A DNA stretch of 64,000 bases from Acidimicrobiaceae bacterium (GTDB lineage: Bacteria > Actinomycetota > Acidimicrobiia > Acidimicrobiales > RAAP-2): positions 1 through 64,000 of the forward strand of contig PMLJ01000009.1 in the NCBI GenBank assembly GCA_003158855.1, given 5' to 3'. Positions 4,796-20,594 of the stretch are shown here, one piece after another. Position numbers and translations under genes: made by a program. A model generated the notes under the pieces. That model made no database searches, was not told the DNA's origin, and saw nothing but the letters and a program-made list of their open reading frames with translations. Numbering within the stretch: position 1 is the stretch's first letter; each line of letters opens with the position of its first letter.

Positions 4796-5542
4796 TTAAT
4801 GAATTGTATTGATTGTAGTCGTTACCGCGGAGATAATCACGCTGGCCACAGCGACCCAAACCCAGAAGAAGCGTACCAGGCGAGCCTGGTACCACTTGGT
4901 TCCATTGATTGCGCCCCGTGCCGAACGAATCGTCAATCCCAGCCCCAGAAAGGCCAGGACGATTAAGTGGATCAGGGTCGATCCGACAATGGCCATCATG
5001 GCTGAGTCGTACGCGGTGTAGGCCATCGTCAAGCTGTCGTTGTGCGCGGAAAAGATCTGCGGAATGTGACGGAGCTGGATGACCGTGAAGACAATGGCAA
5101 CAACGGTGACCACTGTCGAAGCGGCTGCCAACGTCGAGTAGGACTTCGCATTCTTCGTGGCGCGAAGCCCACGCTCCGCTGCCCAGATGATTCCTGCGCT
5201 GACCACCGTCAAGACCGTCACCAACCAGTTGAGCCCGGCGGACAACGTCCCGACGTGAATCAGCTTCGGATTAGGTATCGAACCACCCTTGACGTCCAGG
5301 ATGTTGTAGTAGTACGAATACGGGTGGCCGGTGTAGCCCCACATGCTCATCCAGTGGCCGCCGCTATTCACACCACGCAGGTACAGATAGGTGAACAGCA
5401 GCGCGCCGAGTCCGATCATGTCACCGCCAATGAAGAGCCATACGCCCATGCGTTGACGGCCGTCGACTACCTCGGGCGGCTCGTGATGCCCTCCGTCGTG
5501 CGCACCGTGGGCATCGAGCTCTGAGTGGGTGTCGATACTCAT
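4796..5542 (-). CDS. ctaE: Cytochrome c oxidase subunit III-like protein
   Basis: Membrane subunit of the haem-copper oxidase encoded by the next genes upstream. It has 248 residues: a His-rich N-terminus, then RMGVWLFIGGDMIGLGALLFTYLYLR (residues about 31-56), which matches the conserved subunit III helix MGLWLFLASE...FGALFAAYLYLR, followed by four or more hydrophobic segments. It is divergent: the usual helix with FHGLHV is not obvious. The start overlaps the end of subunit I as ATGA. Assignment as subunit III rests on that one conserved helix and on the operon. Confidence 0.78.
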   Translation of the reverse strand: MSIDTHSELDAHGAHDGGHHEPPEVVDGRQRMGVWLFIGGDMIGLGALLFTYLYLRGVNSGGHWMSMWGYTGHPYSYYYNILDVKGGSIPNPKLIHVGTLSAGLNWLVTVLTVVSAGIIWAAERGLRATKNAKSYSTLAAASTVVTVVAIVFTVIQLRHIPQIFSAHNDSLTMAYTAYDSAMMAIVGSTLIHLIVLAFLGLGLTIRSARGAINGTKWYQARLVRFFWVWVAVASVIISAVTTTINTIH

Positions 5543-7404
5543 GAACGCACCAATTCCTCTCCGTAGTTGTAGGGGTCTTCAGTGATTACCGGCAGTACTT
5601 CGAAGTTCTCCAGGGGCACCGGCGTTGGAACCATCCACTCGAGCGAGTTGGCGTGCCACGGGTTGGGACCGGCGGGCTCGCCCTTGTTCCACGAGGTGAT
5701 CACCGCACCCAGCAGAACGAGCATGCCGGCCATGATGATGTATGCCCCGATGGTAGTCATCAAGTTCGTGTGCTCGAAGATGAAGGCGTACGAGGAGTAG
5801 CGGCGAGGCATGCCCCTGAGTCCCGAGGCGAACATAGCGAGGAACGTCACCTGGACCCCAATGAAAGTGAGCCAGAACGAGATACGACCCATGAATTCGT
5901 TGAGGAATCGACCCGTAACTTTCGGGTACCAGAAGGCCAAGGCCGAGACCGCGCCGAAGAGCACCGAGCCAACGAACACGTAGTGGAAATGGGCTGTCAC
6001 GAACATCGTCCCGTGCAACTGGTCATCGAGCGGGATGTCCGAGAGGTAGATACCCGTCACGCCAGCAATGATGAAGTTGGCGATGAAGCCAAACATCCAG
6101 ATCGTCGGCAACTTCATCCATATGTTTCCCCGCCATAGGGTGCCGATAAGCACCAGAAAGAACAGACCCGTCGGAATCGAGATGAGCTCCGTGGTGAGCA
6201 TGAAGGGGCCGCCAAGCGTCGGCGCCCAGCCCGTGGTGAACATGTGGTGGGCCCACACCAAGATGCTGAGTCCCGCGAGACCGGTCATGCCGGCGACAGC
6301 ACTTCGGTAACTGAAGACTGGCTTCCTCGACATGACTGCAGCGATCTCGAAGAGCGCGGCCACCGCAGGCAGCAGAATTACGTACACCTCGGGGTGTCCC
6401 ATGAGCCAGAAGAGGTTCGCCTGAAGCCATCCGGTGCCTCCGGCATTCGCAACGAAGAAGCTCGTGCTGAAGGTGCGGTCCATCAGTGTCTGCGCCTCGA
6501 CCAATGAGAAATAGGGGAAGGCGTAAAGACCCAATGCAGCTGCGATGATCGCACCCCACACGAAGATGGGCAGACGCGCAAGGGTCATTCCCTTGGTTCG
6601 CATGGTGAGGATCGTACAGATCGTGTTGACGCCGGCCACGGTCGTCGACACAGTGAAGACAATGATCGCCATCGCGAAGAAGTCCATTCCGACTCCGGCC
6701 TGGTCCGCGATCGGCTCCAGCACCACCCATCCCATCGTCAAGCTGCCGACGGCCAACGTCGTGAGAAGAAGACCGGCCGCGCCAACGAGGGTCCAGAGGC
6801 TCAGGGCATTCAGTCGTGGAAACGCCATGTCGCGCGCTCCGCACATGATGGGCACAACGAAGTTGCCCCACGGTCCGGCGACCGCGACGATGAGCGCCAG
6901 GATCATCAGCATGCCGTGCACCGCGATGAAGCCGTTGTAGACCTGCTGGTTCACGAAATGGTTGCCCGGTACGATCAACTCGGTACGGATGGCCATGGCC
7001 AGGATCCCACCAGCGCCCAAGAGCACCATCGTCATGATGATGTACTGGACACCGACCACTTTGTGGTCGGTGGTGAACTTCCAGTAGCGCGACGTTCCCT
7101 GGCCTTGTCCGGCCAGGTAGAGGTCGTCAGCGCGGGTGTTGTCGCGACCGATCAGCCATCGCAGCGGCGCAACGAATGCGCCAATGCCCAGCCAAAAGCC
7201 AACAATCCAACCGATGGTCAGCGAGCCAGCCACTTCGTCGCTGTAGGTTCGGCTTGTCGCGTCAAGGAAGTGGTGCGCGAGGTACCAGAAGAGCGACGCG
7301 AATACGATTCCCCCGATCATCGCGGTTGCCATGTTCAAACGACGATGCAACCCGCCACCCTGAGGTATCGCTGCGGTCTTCGCCTGTTCCAATGTTGTTG
7401 TCAT
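5539..7404 (-). CDS. ctaD: Cytochrome c oxidase subunit I, K-channel Lys replaced
   Basis: Catalytic subunit of a haem-copper oxygen reductase; 621 residues, longer than usual through an N-terminal extension (about 1-105) with two extra hydrophobic segments. Family core starts at KFTTDHKVVGVQ. Haem a ligands are H163 and H474; haem a3 ligand H472 (AHFHY); CuB ligands H337 with the cross-linked Y341 (GHPEVY), H386 and H387 (WAHHMF). D-channel residues D192 and N199 (RDMAFPRLN) and E339 are present, so it is A-type. In helix VIII the PTGIK motif reads PTGLF: the K-channel Lys is Phe415, and an unusual acidic residue, E406, lies one helix face earlier. The ATG is preceded by AGGAGGT. Confidence 0.95.
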   Translation of the reverse strand: MTTTLEQAKTAAIPQGGGLHRRLNMATAMIGGIVFASLFWYLAHHFLDATSRTYSDEVAGSLTIGWIVGFWLGIGAFVAPLRWLIGRDNTRADDLYLAGQGQGTSRYWKFTTDHKVVGVQYIIMTMVLLGAGGILAMAIRTELIVPGNHFVNQQVYNGFIAVHGMLMILALIVAVAGPWGNFVVPIMCGARDMAFPRLNALSLWTLVGAAGLLLTTLAVGSLTMGWVVLEPIADQAGVGMDFFAMAIIVFTVSTTVAGVNTICTILTMRTKGMTLARLPIFVWGAIIAAALGLYAFPYFSLVEAQTLMDRTFSTSFFVANAGGTGWLQANLFWLMGHPEVYVILLPAVAALFEIAAVMSRKPVFSYRSAVAGMTGLAGLSILVWAHHMFTTGWAPTLGGPFMLTTELISIPTGLFFLVLIGTLWRGNIWMKLPTIWMFGFIANFIIAGVTGIYLSDIPLDDQLHGTMFVTAHFHYVFVGSVLFGAVSALAFWYPKVTGRFLNEFMGRISFWLTFIGVQVTFLAMFASGLRGMPRRYSSYAFIFEHTNLMTTIGAYIIMAGMLVLLGAVITSWNKGEPAGPNPWHANSLEWMVPTPVPLENFEVLPVITEDPYNYGEELVRS

Positions 7405-7413
7405 GCCGACCTC

Positions 7414-8148
7414 CTAGGCTCGCTGTGGCTGTGAAGCGAGCCAACTCGTGAATTGTTGTGCTGTCAGAACGTGTCCCTCGGTGACCATGAACGCGTGATT
7501 GAGGCCGCAGAACTGGGTGCATCGAATGTCGAAGGTTCCCAACTTGTCCGGAGTCGTGTGGATGGTCGTAATGGTGCCGACATTGGCGTCGACCTGGACA
7601 CCCATGTTGGCGATCCAGAAGCCGTGGGTGACATCGAGTGCAGTGACTCGGAACTCGACCTCACGGTTGAGTGGGAGATAGAGGTCAGGAGACGAGACGT
7701 GCGTGCCCGGGTACGAGAATGACCAGACCCACTGCTGACCGGTTACGTCCACTACCAGGGGGTTCTTTCCGGTGGAGCCATTGTCAACCGCCAAAGCACC
7801 CAAGCCCCAAATGAGGAGGAACACCGTCAGCAGCGTAGAGACGACCAGCCACGTGGTGACGACCATCGCGTTCTCGCGAACTGCCGGACCCGCCGAGGGA
7901 ACATCGTTACCCTTGTGCGTCCATCGGGTTAGTGCGAAGAGCGCCGTGGCGTATACGCCGGCCGCCACTGGCGCCGCGGCGACGGTGAAGACGACCATCG
8001 TGAGGATCGTCAGGTGCATGTTGTTGCTCATCGATTTTGGCATGATCCACGCCGGCGCGTAGAGGCCAATGATCACGCCGATAACCGTGAGCGCCGCCCA
8101 GGTCCAGAGCATCCCCTTCAGGGACTGCTTGTTTGTAGAGGTAGACAC
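7414..8148 (-). CDS. ctaC: Cytochrome c oxidase subunit II with intact CuA site
   Basis: Receives electrons from the soluble donor through a binuclear CuA centre and passes them to subunit I. It has 244 residues: a cytoplasmic N-terminus, three hydrophobic stretches in the first 125 residues, then the external cupredoxin domain with DVTGQQWVWSFSYPG. The CuA ligands are complete: the upstream His in DVTHGFW and C-x3-C-x3-H-x2-M in CTQFCGLNHAFM. The start is GTG 8148 with AAGGAG, and this ribosome binding site overlaps the stop codon of the upstream cupredoxin gene. Confidence 0.93.
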   Translation of the reverse strand: MSTSTNKQSLKGMLWTWAALTVIGVIIGLYAPAWIMPKSMSNNMHLTILTMVVFTVAAAPVAAGVYATALFALTRWTHKGNDVPSAGPAVRENAMVVTTWLVVSTLLTVFLLIWGLGALAVDNGSTGKNPLVVDVTGQQWVWSFSYPGTHVSSPDLYLPLNREVEFRVTALDVTHGFWIANMGVQVDANVGTITTIHTTPDKLGTFDIRCTQFCGLNHAFMVTEGHVLTAQQFTSWLASQPQRA

Positions 8149-8156
8149 GATTCTCC

Positions 8157-8831
8157 TTAGTTGACCGTCAGGGTGCCGGACATGTAGCCGTACGCCGACA
8201 TTGCTTCACCGAACTGGCCTTCACGCGTGCTCCCGCATGGGAACTCACAGTTCCACTCGTAGACGCCCTTGGCGCCGGTCTTGAACGAGAATTGGACGAC
8301 CACAGGCTTTGTGTACTGGCCTTGGCCGATATTCACTGATTGCGTGTTCGAGTCCGCAGGGAGCGGAACAGACACGAACATGGTCTTGCCGCTTCCGGGA
8401 ATGCCACGCAGCGTGAACGTGTGACCGACGTTCGTGGGGTCGACGCTCGACACCGTCTTGCCGTCAATCGTGGCGGTTCCACCTACGGTGCCCATCACCT
8501 GGTCGAAAAAGGCGTTGTTCAGTGACCCACCCGAGTCGTACTGGTCGATCGTGACGTTTACCGTCGTGTTCGCGGGTACCACCAGGTTGTCGTTCGAGTA
8601 GGAGACCCAGTCAGGATGAACGCCACCATCCTTCCCCTGCTCGCCAGCCATGGAGTCAGGGAACGTGCTGAGATTCAGGTTGCAGGTATTTGGTGCGGAC
8701 TGGCTTGGAACGCAGTTCAATGCCGCCTGGTGAGGAGTCGCGCTGGCCAGGGCAAACCCTGCCAGGGCCAACGCACCGCCACCAAGGAGCACCGAAGCCA
8801 AGGCTACGCCGAGTGACTTCGACCGATTCAT
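8157..8831 (-). CDS. Secreted CuA-like cupredoxin
   Basis: First gene of the oxidase transcript. It has 224 residues with a Sec signal peptide (MNRSKSLGVALASVLLGGGA, then a small-residue cleavage zone near 30). The rest looks like a single cupredoxin barrel: paired beta-rich stretches, H137 in VGHTFTLRG, and a C-terminal copper loop WNCEFPCG with C195 and C199 in CuA spacing (C-x3-C). The His and Met that follow in CuA (x3-H-x2-M) are missing; M211 and M217 are possible replacements. It is likely an electron carrier or copper donor for the oxidase. Ribosome binding site AAAGGAG. No known family name can be given safely. Confidence 0.72.
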   Translation of the reverse strand: MNRSKSLGVALASVLLGGGALALAGFALASATPHQAALNCVPSQSAPNTCNLNLSTFPDSMAGEQGKDGGVHPDWVSYSNDNLVVPANTTVNVTIDQYDSGGSLNNAFFDQVMGTVGGTATIDGKTVSSVDPTNVGHTFTLRGIPGSGKTMFVSVPLPADSNTQSVNIGQGQYTKPVVVQFSFKTGAKGVYEWNCEFPCGSTREGQFGEAMSAYGYMSGTLTVN

Positions 8832-8918: not shown

Positions 8919-9275
8919 ATGAGTCTAAATACGGTTAAAGTCCGTGAGGTGGCGCCTGTTGCTAAGAATACATTCAGAATCTATCTTGGCCTGTTCCTCG
9001 CAGAACTCATCTGCATCCCCGCGTTCATCTTCGAAACCAGCCGCGCGCTGAGCGGCAACACGCTGTCGTGGGCCTACGTCGTGGAGTGGCCGCTCCTTGG
9101 CGGTTACGCCGTGTACATGTGGCGGAAAATGCTGCGGGAGGAAAAAGGGCTGGATGATCGGCCAGTGGTCGAGAGCACCGAGGAGGACGACCCGCAGTTG
9201 AAGGCCTGGAACGACTATCTCAAGTCAGTCCATGAGCCAGCTCAGACTGACGAACCCGACATCCGCGCCGACTGA
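8919..9275 (+). CDS. Small two-helix membrane protein of unknown function
   Basis: 118 residues. Two hydrophobic segments (about 18-40 and 47-68) are followed by a charged tail ending in acidic residues. The start ATG at 8919 has GCGGAG a few bases before it. The gene is divergent from the cupredoxin-oxidase operon and convergent with ctaG, whose 3' end it overlaps by 34 bp. Context suggests a small accessory or assembly protein of the respiratory chain, but no family motif is recognised. Confidence 0.7.
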   Translation: MSLNTVKVREVAPVAKNTFRIYLGLFLAELICIPAFIFETSRALSGNTLSWAYVVEWPLLGGYAVYMWRKMLREEKGLDDRPVVESTEEDDPQLKAWNDYLKSVHEPAQTDEPDIRAD

Positions 9276-10102
9276 CGGTCGAGGGCGGCGAAGAGCGACC
9301 CATCTCGCATCACCAGCCTTCGCGTAATCAGCACGAGGCACGGTACTGCCCAGAAATCGCCGCACACCCACAAGATCGCCGCGGCCAACTGCTGCTGGTG
9401 GAATGCCTGGGCGACCGTGACCGCCGGTCCCGACATGTTCATTCCCGTCATGGCGCCCGAGCCGCGGAACATCACCGAATACCACGCGGCTTTGGTGAAG
9501 ATCGACATCGCCATGGCCATGATGAGCATCTCGAGCATCGTGAGGAGCACCATGAAGAGCTGCAACCTGAGGCGGATACGGATCCCTCGAGGCGGCGCCG
9601 GAATGAGGTAATGAAAGAAGAAGAGTCCGGAAAGCAGGAACGCCGGCTCCATCAGCCAGTCCATGGCCCAGGTGTGCTCCATCACCGAATCGAAGACCCT
9701 GGGCACGTGGGCAGCAACCATCACCGCGTTGAGCAGCCCCGCCGCGAGGATCGGGCTCGCCAGCCACTTCGGGGTTCGCCAATGGCGTCCTACGTACCAC
9801 CAGCGAAGAACCTGGCGACGTTGCGTTGTTCCAAGCACCCACCAACACGACCGGCTCGACGCCGACCCGATGAGGCCCATAGGTACGAGGAACATCACGA
9901 TAACGTGGCCAATCATGTGGTCCGGCAGATTCGTCATGCCATCCTTCGCGAACGACGAGGCCGTGGCGAACCACAGCAGCGCCCACGACGCCAGGGCCAG
10001 CACGTACTGGAGCGTCACGCGCTTCGATCGAGCCCCTCTACGAACGTACGCCACCGTCGCCACCGTCGCACCGAGAACAGCGACGACTCCTAGCGGGGCC
10101 AC
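9242..10102 (-). CDS. ctaG: CtaG-like cytochrome c oxidase assembly protein
   Basis: 286-residue polytopic protein resembling the caa3-type CtaG family, which is needed for assembly of haem-copper oxidases. The family pattern is visible: LPDHMIGHVIVMFLVPMGLIG, then a TTQRRQVLRW cytoplasmic turn, then LMEPAFLLSGLFFFHYLIP and FHQQQLAAAILWVCGDFW near the end. The conserved His residues in these helices may bind copper. I chose GTG 10102, two bases after the stop of the membrane-SCO gene; the upstream ATG at 10171 would overlap that gene by 67 bp, and no other start codon exists between them. Confidence 0.8.
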   Translation of the reverse strand: MAPLGVVAVLGATVATVAYVRRGARSKRVTLQYVLALASWALLWFATASSFAKDGMTNLPDHMIGHVIVMFLVPMGLIGSASSRSCWWVLGTTQRRQVLRWWYVGRHWRTPKWLASPILAAGLLNAVMVAAHVPRVFDSVMEHTWAMDWLMEPAFLLSGLFFFHYLIPAPPRGIRIRLRLQLFMVLLTMLEMLIMAMAMSIFTKAAWYSVMFRGSGAMTGMNMSGPAVTVAQAFHQQQLAAAILWVCGDFWAVPCLVLITRRLVMRDGSLFAALDRQSARMSGSSV

Positions 10103-10104
10103 CG

Positions 10105-11841
10105 TTAGGCCAATCCCGACTTGTGCAAGAGGGTCAACAGTTCTGACTCCGAAGAGTTCTCGATGGCCCAAGAGTTGGCAGGGTCGTCAGGAATGATCCA
10201 CTTCAGTCGACCGTGGGAATTGATGATGAACATGTAGTCGGAGTGGATACTCATCTTGTCAGTTGGCTTCATTTCGACCGTGATGCCGTACGAGTTCCAG
10301 ACTGCCCTCGTCTTCGCCAACTTTCCAGTCACGAAGTAGAAATCCTGCACATTCTCCATTTCGTGGGCCGTGATGAAGTGCTTTACGTTGGCGAGGGTCT
10401 CGTGGTAGGGATCCGCGGCAACCGCGACAATGTCCACCTTGGCGCTCGGTCCGAGTTCCTGGCGAATCCGGGCAAGCTGTTGGCCGATCAGCGGGCAGTC
10501 GGTCCAGCACGTGGGATCGAGGAACGTGAGGAGCGTGTACCTGCCAGCGTGCTCGCCAAGCGTGTAGCTCTTGTGAAACTGGTCAGTCAACGTGAATGTT
10601 GGAGCTATCGTGTTCGCCTCGATCGCCGAGCCATTGCGCGCCGTGAAGAATGTGCTCTCCGCCGCCGACACCGATGCCACTCCCATGGAGAAGATCGAGA
10701 AGATCACCATCGCGGCGGCGAACGAAGCCAGGACCGACCCGGAGCTCGAGCGCATCTCCCTTGGAAGATGCCTCGCGAGCGGAGCGTTGCCGACGAGCTG
10801 TGGTCCGGCTGCCCAAGTGAGCGCGGCCATTGGTATCAGTGAGTTGAGGTCGGTCGCGAGACCGCCGAAGATCGCTGCGTCCTGCGCCACGATCCAAAAA
10901 GCCAAGCAGCCAACGACGAATGTCCATACCGGCCAGCGCCAACCGCGACTGCTCGCCATCCAGAGTCCCACAGCGCAAATGAATAACCACAGGATGATGA
11001 TGATATTGAATCCCCCACCCATCGAGCCCGCAATCTCTCCCCCATGACGCGCAATCGATACGAGCAGGTGCGGCTGCGGGGTCGCGGTCATGGACTGGGT
11101 CATGGCCGTCAGCGCGTTGGTGTTGCCTCCGTGCCAAAAACCTCGTGATGGGAGCAACTGCAGCGCAGCGGCGACTCCGATGATCACGCTCAGACCCCGT
11201 AGCGTGTACCGGGAAAACCTCTCGGGAAATGACCTCGGCGACATCGCCAGCCACACGCCGGCTACGACATAGAAGAGCGTGGCTCCGGGCCATCCGAAGA
11301 GAATGGAGCTTGAAGACTGGAAGATGCCGCCAGCCCCGTTGCCGATCAGCCAAATCATTGCCGCCCACGCGGCCGATACGCCCCCGGCGAAGCGTCCAAC
11401 GGTCGAGTTCGACACCAACAGCAGAATCCCGAGGCCGACCTGAATCCATGCGGTGCCTACGGCGAGGGCGATCGGATGGTTGTTCCAGACACCGATTCCG
11501 TCGTTCATCAGGAGGTGAAGCCAGTGGGGCGTCCCGCTCGCCATGGGCGCAACGACGTTGTTCGCGAGACCGAGCGGCATCGAAACCTGAAATTGGAGGA
11601 TTCCGTCGATCAGCCAGATCGCGCCAAAGGCCATTCGAAGAAGACTGCGATTGCGCGGCTCATTGAGCCCCGGCGCCGAAAGGTTGAACGTGCTGACCTT
11701 GCGAAGAAGGACCGCGCCGAGCAGTATGGCCAGACCAATCGCGATGATCCACAACACCGCCGCGACGTAGACACTGTGGCGAAAGAGTGCCACAACGAGC
11801 GGATTCGTCAGGTCAATTGGCGAAGGGTTGCCCATTGGCAC
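10105..11841 (-). CDS. Fusion of a multi-pass membrane domain and a SCO1/SenC copper chaperone
   Basis: 578 residues. Residues 1-390 hold about nine or ten hydrophobic helices with several His, Trp and Met residues (for example HPHLLVSIARHGGE-like stretches near 258-270) and belong to no family I can name. Residues 405-578 are a thioredoxin-fold SCO1/SenC domain with the copper ligands C445 and C449 (DPTCWTDCPL) and H533 (SIHSDYMF). SCO proteins load CuA of subunit II. Anchoring the chaperone to a large membrane domain is unusual, since SCO normally has one anchor helix. GTG 11841 follows AGGAG. Probably cotranscribed with ctaG. Confidence 0.85.
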   Translation of the reverse strand: MPMGNPSPIDLTNPLVVALFRHSVYVAAVLWIIAIGLAILLGAVLLRKVSTFNLSAPGLNEPRNRSLLRMAFGAIWLIDGILQFQVSMPLGLANNVVAPMASGTPHWLHLLMNDGIGVWNNHPIALAVGTAWIQVGLGILLLVSNSTVGRFAGGVSAAWAAMIWLIGNGAGGIFQSSSSILFGWPGATLFYVVAGVWLAMSPRSFPERFSRYTLRGLSVIIGVAAALQLLPSRGFWHGGNTNALTAMTQSMTATPQPHLLVSIARHGGEIAGSMGGGFNIIIILWLFICAVGLWMASSRGWRWPVWTFVVGCLAFWIVAQDAAIFGGLATDLNSLIPMAALTWAAGPQLVGNAPLARHLPREMRSSSGSVLASFAAAMVIFSIFSMGVASVSAAESTFFTARNGSAIEANTIAPTFTLTDQFHKSYTLGEHAGRYTLLTFLDPTCWTDCPLIGQQLARIRQELGPSAKVDIVAVAADPYHETLANVKHFITAHEMENVQDFYFVTGKLAKTRAVWNSYGITVEMKPTDKMSIHSDYMFIINSHGRLKWIIPDDPANSWAIENSSESELLTLLHKSGLA

Positions 11842-19853: not shown

Positions 19854-20594
19854 CTACAAGAGTGCGTACGACGGCAAATGAACCTGGAGCCACAGCACCA
19901 AGGCGTTCCACGCGCCGGTAATCTCGGCGATTCCGATGAGCATGAGCAGGACCCCGCCGATGAGTCCCAGCGTCCTGCTGTGGCGACGAAGCCACGTCGA
20001 GGCCGTGGCCATCCACTCGGTGGCGAGGGCGGCGACGACGAAGGGAACCCCGAGCCCGAGGCAGTACACGAAGGCCAGCGTCGACCCGCGAAGCGCCGTG
20101 GCCCCCGACGAAGACGCCGCGAGACCGAGAATCGATCCGAGCGTCGGCCCAATGCACGGCGTCCAGCCCAGTCCAAAGGTGATGCCGAGCAGCCCGGCGC
20201 CGACGACGGACACTCGGGGCAGGCGGTGTATGCGCCGATCGCGCTGAAGCCACGAAGACGGCCACAGTCCCGCGAAGAACATCCCGAGGAGAATCGTCAC
20301 GACGCCGAACGCGATGTCGAGCGGGCGCTCGTGCGTGCGCAGGTGGGCGCCGAACTCGCCGAAGAGGGCTCCGAAACTCACGAAGACGAGGGCGAAGCCG
20401 AGCACGAACGCGATGGAGCCAAGCAGCGCCCGTCCCTTTGCGGCCTCGCCCTCGACGCGCCCCGACGCTCCGCTCAGAAACGCAACGTACCCGGGGAGCA
20501 GCGGCAGGACGCACGGCGAGACGAATGAGACGAGACCCGCGGCGAACGCCAAGGGGAACGCCGCCAGCAGGGACGCCGGGAGCGTGGCGACCAT
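19854..20594 (-). CDS. ccdA: CcdA-type thiol-disulfide membrane transporter
   Basis: Moves reducing power across the membrane for cytochrome c maturation or for other extracytoplasmic thioredoxins. It has 246 residues and about six helices. The redox cysteines are in VSFVSPCVLPLLPGY and GWTPCIGPTLGSIL, the DsbD/CcdA signature. The ATG at 20594 overlaps the menD stop (TGATG), so it follows menD in one transcript. Possible partners are the SCO domain and subunit II of the oxidase encoded upstream in the window. Confidence 0.92.
   Translation of the reverse strand: MVATLPASLLAAFPLAFAAGLVSFVSPCVLPLLPGYVAFLSGASGRVEGEAAKGRALLGSIAFVLGFALVFVSFGALFGEFGAHLRTHERPLDIAFGVVTILLGMFFAGLWPSSWLQRDRRIHRLPRVSVVGAGLLGITFGLGWTPCIGPTLGSILGLAASSSGATALRGSTLAFVYCLGLGVPFVVAALATEWMATASTWLRRHSRTLGLIGGVLLMLIGIAEITGAWNALVLWLQVHLPSYALL

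Follow-up and report, generated by a model that had tools for sequence, protein, structure and literature searches.

Within the 64,000-nt stretch of DNA analysed here (the window; contig PMLJ01000009.1 of Acidimicrobiaceae bacterium, GCA_003158855.1, to which all coordinates refer), a single gene at 10105–11841 on the minus strand encodes a protein of 578 amino acids in which a membrane platform is fused to a SCO domain, and this fusion protein very probably serves the assembly of the CuA centre of cytochrome c oxidase. This role in CuA assembly has good support, because the copper ligands of the SCO domain are intact, the domain is the sole SCO match in the genome, and cox genes adjoin. Judged by its sequence, the membrane part is a tandemly doubled four-helix DoxX-like unit, and it is likely to work together with SCO, since the fusion is old and has been kept. 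As our best reading, which we put forward tentatively and at somewhat less than an even chance, the protein would be a one-piece CuA assembly factor, in which the platform acts as a redox module with quinol and one of its loops possibly holds Cu(I).

The fused SCO gene, its surroundings and its distribution

The reading frame starts with GTG and is stop-free throughout. Its SCO domain (residues 410–578; 10108–10614, minus strand) matches Pfam SCO1-SenC at residues 415–545 (E 1.3e-13, 51.5 bits, cut-off 22.8), and the copper ligands C445, C449 and H533 are all present in the translation, whereby both the CxxxC motif with C445 and C449 (10495–10509, minus strand) and H533 (10243–10245, minus strand) are invariant in 16 aligned fusion sequences. 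The predicted SCO domain has a thioredoxin-like fold, with Z values against solved Sco structures of up to 17.3 (yeast Sco1, 155 residues, rmsd 2.4); taken by itself, it is ordinary and canonical. The stop-free frame and the Pfam match bear out the first-pass annotation, which had described about 390 membrane residues joined in frame to a complete SCO domain with these three ligands. SCO1/SenC chaperones such as BsSco/YpmQ, ScoI and SCO1 likewise have a thioredoxin-like domain with CxxxC and His, lie outside and are encoded near cox genes, but according to their description (PMC9145763) they are anchored by a single membrane helix or by a lipid, a trait which is usual and perhaps not defining, in line with the single anchor helix that the same annotation had named as usual, whereas the fusion has ten predicted helices. 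AlphaFold models were calculated from 16 sequences (pLDDT 67.7 for the full length and 70.5 for the membrane part, which was also folded alone; the fold search with the full-length model had tested SCO only). They contain ten long hydrophobic helices, namely residues 14–45 (11707–11802, minus strand), eight within residues 63–344, and residues 366–389 (10675–10746, minus strand), which adjoin SCO at the usual place of an SCO anchor. The layout of the membrane part is that of a first helix, two four-helix repeats and a last helix before SCO. The charges of the loops suggest that the N-terminus lies outside, that both repeats start and end inside, and that SCO is located outside.

In the window, aroQ, efp and nusB are followed by the fusion, and this in turn by ctaG, the gene of a cupredoxin-like protein, cox2, cox1 and a subunit III-like gene, whereby the names aroQ, efp and nusB were given by reading the sequence, without family assignment. 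The next gene downstream of the fusion is the ctaG-like gene (9242–10102, minus strand; Caa3_CtaG 81.1 bits, cut-off 27.7), whose start codon is uncertain, the frame being open to 10171; its position next to the fusion had already been noticed from the sequence and was confirmed by the family match. It is followed by the gene of a secreted cupredoxin-like protein with C-x3-C (8157–8831, minus strand), which has no Pfam match and was recognised from its family alignment, by the cytochrome oxidase subunit II gene (7414–8148, minus strand; PF00116, 52.1 bits), in which the CuA motif was seen in the sequence, and by the subunit I gene (5539–7404, minus strand; PF00115, 396 bits). The subunit III-like gene gave no Pfam match. 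Among 43 fused-SCO loci, of which L014 and L082 are one contig, the stretch includes nusB in 19 cases, cox2 in 20 cases and ctaG in 17, counts that are limited by contig ends and flank lengths. Most members of the cupredoxin-like family with a complete C-terminus have W-x-C-x3-C-(G/A) and a later Met, a motif which resembles the CuA loop minus its second His, and genes of this family occur in two or three tandem copies near unfused DoxX-like genes (L034, L035, L039, L081).

The first-pass annotation had raised the possibility of a frameshift or an assembly artefact at the joint. A frameshift, chimera or artefact has a negligible probability, and although single relatives are indeed broken (an unread base divides the frame of L016 in two, and in L068 the SCO part lies in another frame), this explanation was rejected because the open frame is conserved across relatives. 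All 16 confirmed loci in GTDB contigs, L016 among them, match the fusion over at least residues 14–568, and the same open joint occurs in independent assemblies with 38–90% identity; by title, 14 of these loci belong to Acidimicrobiaceae, one to Saccharibacteria (L014) and one to an uncultured actinobacterium (L018). The comparison with related genomes that the annotation had proposed found the same fusion there and, in places, its halves as separate genes. Of 61 genomes, 37 belong to one genus and 24 to other families of the order; a match to the membrane part was obtained in 39 of them, and the intact fusion is present in 32 of the 37 congeneric genomes, the window's genome included, and in two of the 24 others. 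As for the five remaining congeners, the fusion is cut by a contig end in one (G024), two have a separate SCO gene and separate membrane genes of the unfused kind (G021, G027), one has a separate SCO only (G030), and one has neither (G022). With a profile of the membrane domain, 74 of 248 genomes of the order and 14 of 396 of the phylum gave a match, the window's genome being counted in both, and a search of viral contigs found no relative. In a tree of 72 rows, the 49 fused rows lie on one side of a branch with an SH-aLRT of 99, where L081 is found too. Since these rows share one side of the branch, a single fusion event suffices, and the fusion probably arose once.

In the window's genome, which is 96.5% complete, the fused SCO is the only match to PF02630, and it is the only SCO in eight of the 37 congeners, this genome among them. 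In 24 of the 32 fusion-bearing congeners there is at least one further separate SCO gene, in several cases about 7 kb off on the same contig. Regarding other copper and redox genes, PCuAC has no match in the window's genome, CopD has one match under the cut-off, and a CcdA/DsbD-like gene lies at 19854–20594 (63.4 bits). The metagenome-assembled genomes with L006 and L007 have two fused copies each. The second copies (L010, L011) stand beside cox genes; the L006 and L007 copies have nusB on one side and pyrB on the other, and the stretch fetched around them contains no cox gene.

The doubled DoxX-like unit and its possible likeness to gamma-glutamyl carboxylase

Residues 1–388 gave no Pfam match better than E 0.12, and a search of NCBIfam with the whole protein gave no match to the membrane part. 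The profile search proposed by the first-pass annotation for the first 390 or so residues thus yields no Pfam or NCBIfam model, and the named, common family which it had considered is not named in either collection. Neither the architecture of the fusion nor the doubled DoxX-like domain has a model in these collections. Among the matches listed by a literature search, made without preprints and most subscription papers, there was no account of the fusion, and DoxX and SCO1 came together in a single paper, in which SCO1 begins Streptomyces locus tags. Eight sequence matches of the membrane part in the PDB (E 0.04–0.6), which are EmrE and a connexin, were taken as chance.

The doubling is apparent from comparing the membrane part with itself and with single-unit proteins by hhalign. 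Unit 1 (residues 61–200; 11242–11661, minus strand) matches unit 2 (residues 202–350; 10792–11238, minus strand) with a probability of 98.9 and an E value of 1.1e-17, based on 74 sequences (69 after filtering), compared to a probability of 0.5 and E 0.12 for the reversed control. Half-length single-unit proteins of about 220 aa from the same phylum match both units (E 2.4e-17 for unit 1 and 2.6e-11 for unit 2). Six of the ten single-unit proteins were scanned, and all six match Pfam DoxX (E 4e-5 to 5e-3, one above the cut-off), whereby one also matches HTTM (E 0.0017); a six-frame search yielded two further single units above the DoxX cut-off (G084, G075). None of 18 double-unit domains matches Pfam DoxX or HTTM. 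In direct comparison with actinobacterial profile sets, the double unit reached E 0.0023 for HTTM, 0.018 for MauE and 0.25 for DoxX, with reversed controls at 0.1, 0.35 and 0.35, respectively. The four-helix unit is shared with the DoxX family (PF07681; together with DoxD and MauE) and the link runs via the single-unit proteins, whereas the fusion differs in its tandem units, in the lack of a Pfam DoxX match of its own, and at the end of the first helix, where Lys stands in ten of ten single units but Gln in double units (72/75 in unit 1, 52/75 in unit 2).

In a fold search of the PDB with the membrane part, all 15 chains with Z of at least 8 are gamma-glutamyl carboxylase (GGCX), and the next row has Z 7.7. 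The GGCX matches reach Z 9.9–11.5 with 218–239 residues aligned, an rmsd of 3.9–4.9 and 8–11% identity, and the alignment is colinear (residues 59–362 on 58–335). Among helical proteins, values of Z below about 13 can come about by chance, so that the GGCX values may reflect a common helical arrangement, and Foldseek alone gave E 0.068. Nevertheless, we consider the predicted fold match to be probably genuine, because a gap in Z sets these chains apart from the rows that follow, the cover is colinear, and there are hints from DoxX and HTTM. GGCX is described as binding menaquinone-4 hydroquinone amid TM5–TM8 and the TM5–TM6 loop, which caps the quinone site on the lumen side, with K218 as the base (PMC12589487). 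Going by helix order, unit 2 would be the counterpart of TM5–TM8, and residues 229–275 that of the cap. With GGCX/HTTM (PF05090) the membrane part would share a predicted fold in which eight helices precede one more helix and a large domain outside, whereby the place of the GGCX propeptide-binding domain is taken by SCO; it differs in having no base Lys at the aligned place and no Pfam HTTM match. Since Gln stands at the Lys place in double units, the membrane part is unlikely to be a carboxylase, but it may have retained a site for a ligand. W76, D79, Q83, Q85, M88, P105, H122, Q134, W159, W164, a GxPGA motif, W316, T330, D331 and N333 are conserved at 83–97% or more in 75 sequences, some with SCO and others lacking it, and most of these residues are close to what is predicted to be the outer side.

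No Cys of the membrane part is conserved. The fused members have zero to five Cys there, so that none is common to all of them, and those of the window protein are C289 and C312 alone. On this ground, a thiol relay running within the membrane part was rejected.

The MxxxM loop and the unfused relatives

An MxxxM motif (M247, M251; 11089–11103, minus strand) is located in unit 2, in a loop that is predicted to lie outside and whose model is poor (pLDDT under 50). Among 112 distinct double-unit proteins it is present in 48 of 58 that are linked to SCO versus three of 54 without SCO, a count for which three of 115 rows were dropped, belonging to L016 (in two pieces) and L049 (truncated where its contig ends). 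Regarding the three non-SCO proteins with the motif, two keep a stub past the anchor helix (L203, L225) and one has another outer domain (L199). In L081, which has an SCO remnant without CxxxC, the MxxxM is gone too. Six SCO-linked proteins retain CxxxC and His without MxxxM (L069, L070, L073, L190, L192, L193), and L189 shows the reverse, with MxxxM present and CxxxC absent. Since the fused proteins form nearly one clade in the tree, the link between MxxxM and SCO rests on about two independent pairs.

It might be that the platform is a Cu(I) capture device without any redox role, in which M88, M247, M251 and perhaps H122 pass copper to SCO, the metal being taken from outside or from a neighbouring cupredoxin in place of the missing PCuAC. 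We regard this as unlikely, albeit as the strongest of the alternatives. The distribution of MxxxM with SCO is in its favour, as are the conservation of M88 (93%) and H122 (83%) in 75 sequences, the absence of a PCuAC match from the genome and the cupredoxins near unfused relatives. Against it, MxxxM is missing in the six proteins with an intact CxxxC and His, M88 and H122 are kept also without SCO, and the loop is modelled with the low confidence given above.

Unfused relatives in part stand alone, and in part are fused to different domains or lie near cupredoxins. A cupredoxin gene was found in the fetched stretch of 16 of 51 unfused loci, with L081 counted in, versus none of 90 HTTM/DoxX/MauE loci, a contrast that is indicative, as the profile was partly built from counted loci and the loci used for comparison are shorter, most of them being taken from other genomes. 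Four proteins (L042, L071, L072, L074) combine the double DoxX-like domain with a Met/Ser-rich stretch and an outer domain without a name, which has conserved HYVNPAY and HxHTNLC-like motifs; scanned in L042 and L072, it gave no Pfam match. In L191 and L199 the platform bears a different outer domain with an LxCGQGCF motif, likewise without a Pfam match. In L036 the unfused double unit stands beside a DUF5134 gene (44.7 bits). On contig C25 of the window's own genome (L002, L048), and also in L036 and L041, a 226-aa membrane protein, which belongs to the DUF5134 family in L036, is encoded directly after the unfused double unit, amid genes that were read as molybdenum cofactor genes. In L081, L189 and L196 the protein is fused, and the membrane platform is retained with an SCO part that lacks CxxxC.

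Readings of the platform in CuA assembly

In our preferred reading of a one-piece assembly factor, the SCO domain would hang outside the membrane, and the platform would bind menaquinol much as GGCX binds its hydroquinone, close to the outer face, where the majority of the conserved residues are expected to lie. With this menaquinol, the platform would adjust the redox state either of the pair of cysteines in SCO, of the copper of SCO or of the cysteines of CuA, and copper could then be loaded. In the outer loop of unit 2, located by helix order at the place of the GGCX cap, the MxxxM of most fused members may hold Cu(I) for SCO. That the platform sets the SCO redox state with a quinone might be so, at a chance that falls a little short of even, whereas the holding of Cu(I) for SCO, which is compatible with the quinone role, is a more doubtful proposal. 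The quinone part is suggested by the kinship to DoxX and HTTM together with the GGCX-like predicted fold and its quinone site, and by the mycobacterial DoxX, which is described as acting in a thiol-redox complex for thiol recycling (PMC7662651). The copper part is suggested by MxxxM and by the cupredoxin neighbours. However, several observations weigh against the best reading. None of the 18 double units matches the Pfam DoxX or HTTM models, and even the direct profile comparison stays at a best E of 0.0023; the Foldseek E value for GGCX, the pLDDT of 70.5 and a Z under about 13 set limits to the fold argument; the base Lys of GGCX is replaced by Gln at unit 1 in 72 of 75 double units, and there is no conserved Cys for a relay. 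Furthermore, six SCO-linked proteins with CxxxC and His are without MxxxM, L189 being the reverse case, and 24 of the 32 fusion-bearing congeners have a separate SCO as well.

The presence of these separate SCO genes alongside the fusion could also mean that the platform is a scaffold or dock, which fixes SCO at the oxidase or at CtaG during assembly and has no redox or metal cofactor. The retention of the platform in L081, L189 and L196, whose SCO part has lost CxxxC, points in the same direction. We nevertheless hold this to be rather improbable, as polar and aromatic residues of the outer loops are strongly conserved in fused and unfused forms, which seems to be more than a plain anchor would need, and as unfused forms occur without SCO.

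Both SCO and CuA have their site of action outside, so that import would carry copper the wrong way and is unlikely, and the proposal of the first-pass annotation that the membrane part imports copper or binds haem is very improbable as a whole: MxxxM is a motif of the CcoA copper importers, but no transporter or haem protein family was matched, HxxxM occurs in only two of 57 fused membrane parts, and H122 is the only His among the residues that are at least 80% conserved in the 75 aligned membrane parts, which leaves haem binding without support. From the annotation's idea that the membrane part hands copper directly to SCO for CuA assembly, the CuA role stands as well supported and a joint action of the two parts as likely, whereas import is unlikely. 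In the CcoA/CalT importers, as they are described, MxxxM is located in helices and occurs together with HxxxM as their mark (PMC6362234), whereas in the fusion it lies in a loop of a protein of another fold. The nearest multi-pass fusion proposed for CuA is CtiP of Corynebacterium glutamicum, which is built on a Caa3_CtaG domain, and an SCO domain is not among the parts named in the description of CtiP on which we draw (PMC9145763).

A broader version of the preferred reading, which we offer as speculation and consider improbable in its full extent, would have the quinone pool drive the maturation of copper centres. Menaquinol electrons would pass to the attached SCO, the outer MxxxM loop would present Cu(I) in most members, and the route would do without a thiol relay of the TlpA or CcdA type, while the unfused forms would serve the C-x3-C cupredoxins.

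The redox upkeep of the Sco and CuA cysteines and of their copper varies among bacteria and is still debated. With an SCO domain on a platform that resembles a quinone site, one could test directly whether the quinone pool is linked to the assembly of copper centres. The fusion also gives a lead to the function of DoxX-like proteins, and its membrane domain is one for which Pfam and NCBIfam have no profile. Copper delivery to the respiratory oxidase may thus be tied to the redox chemistry of the membrane.
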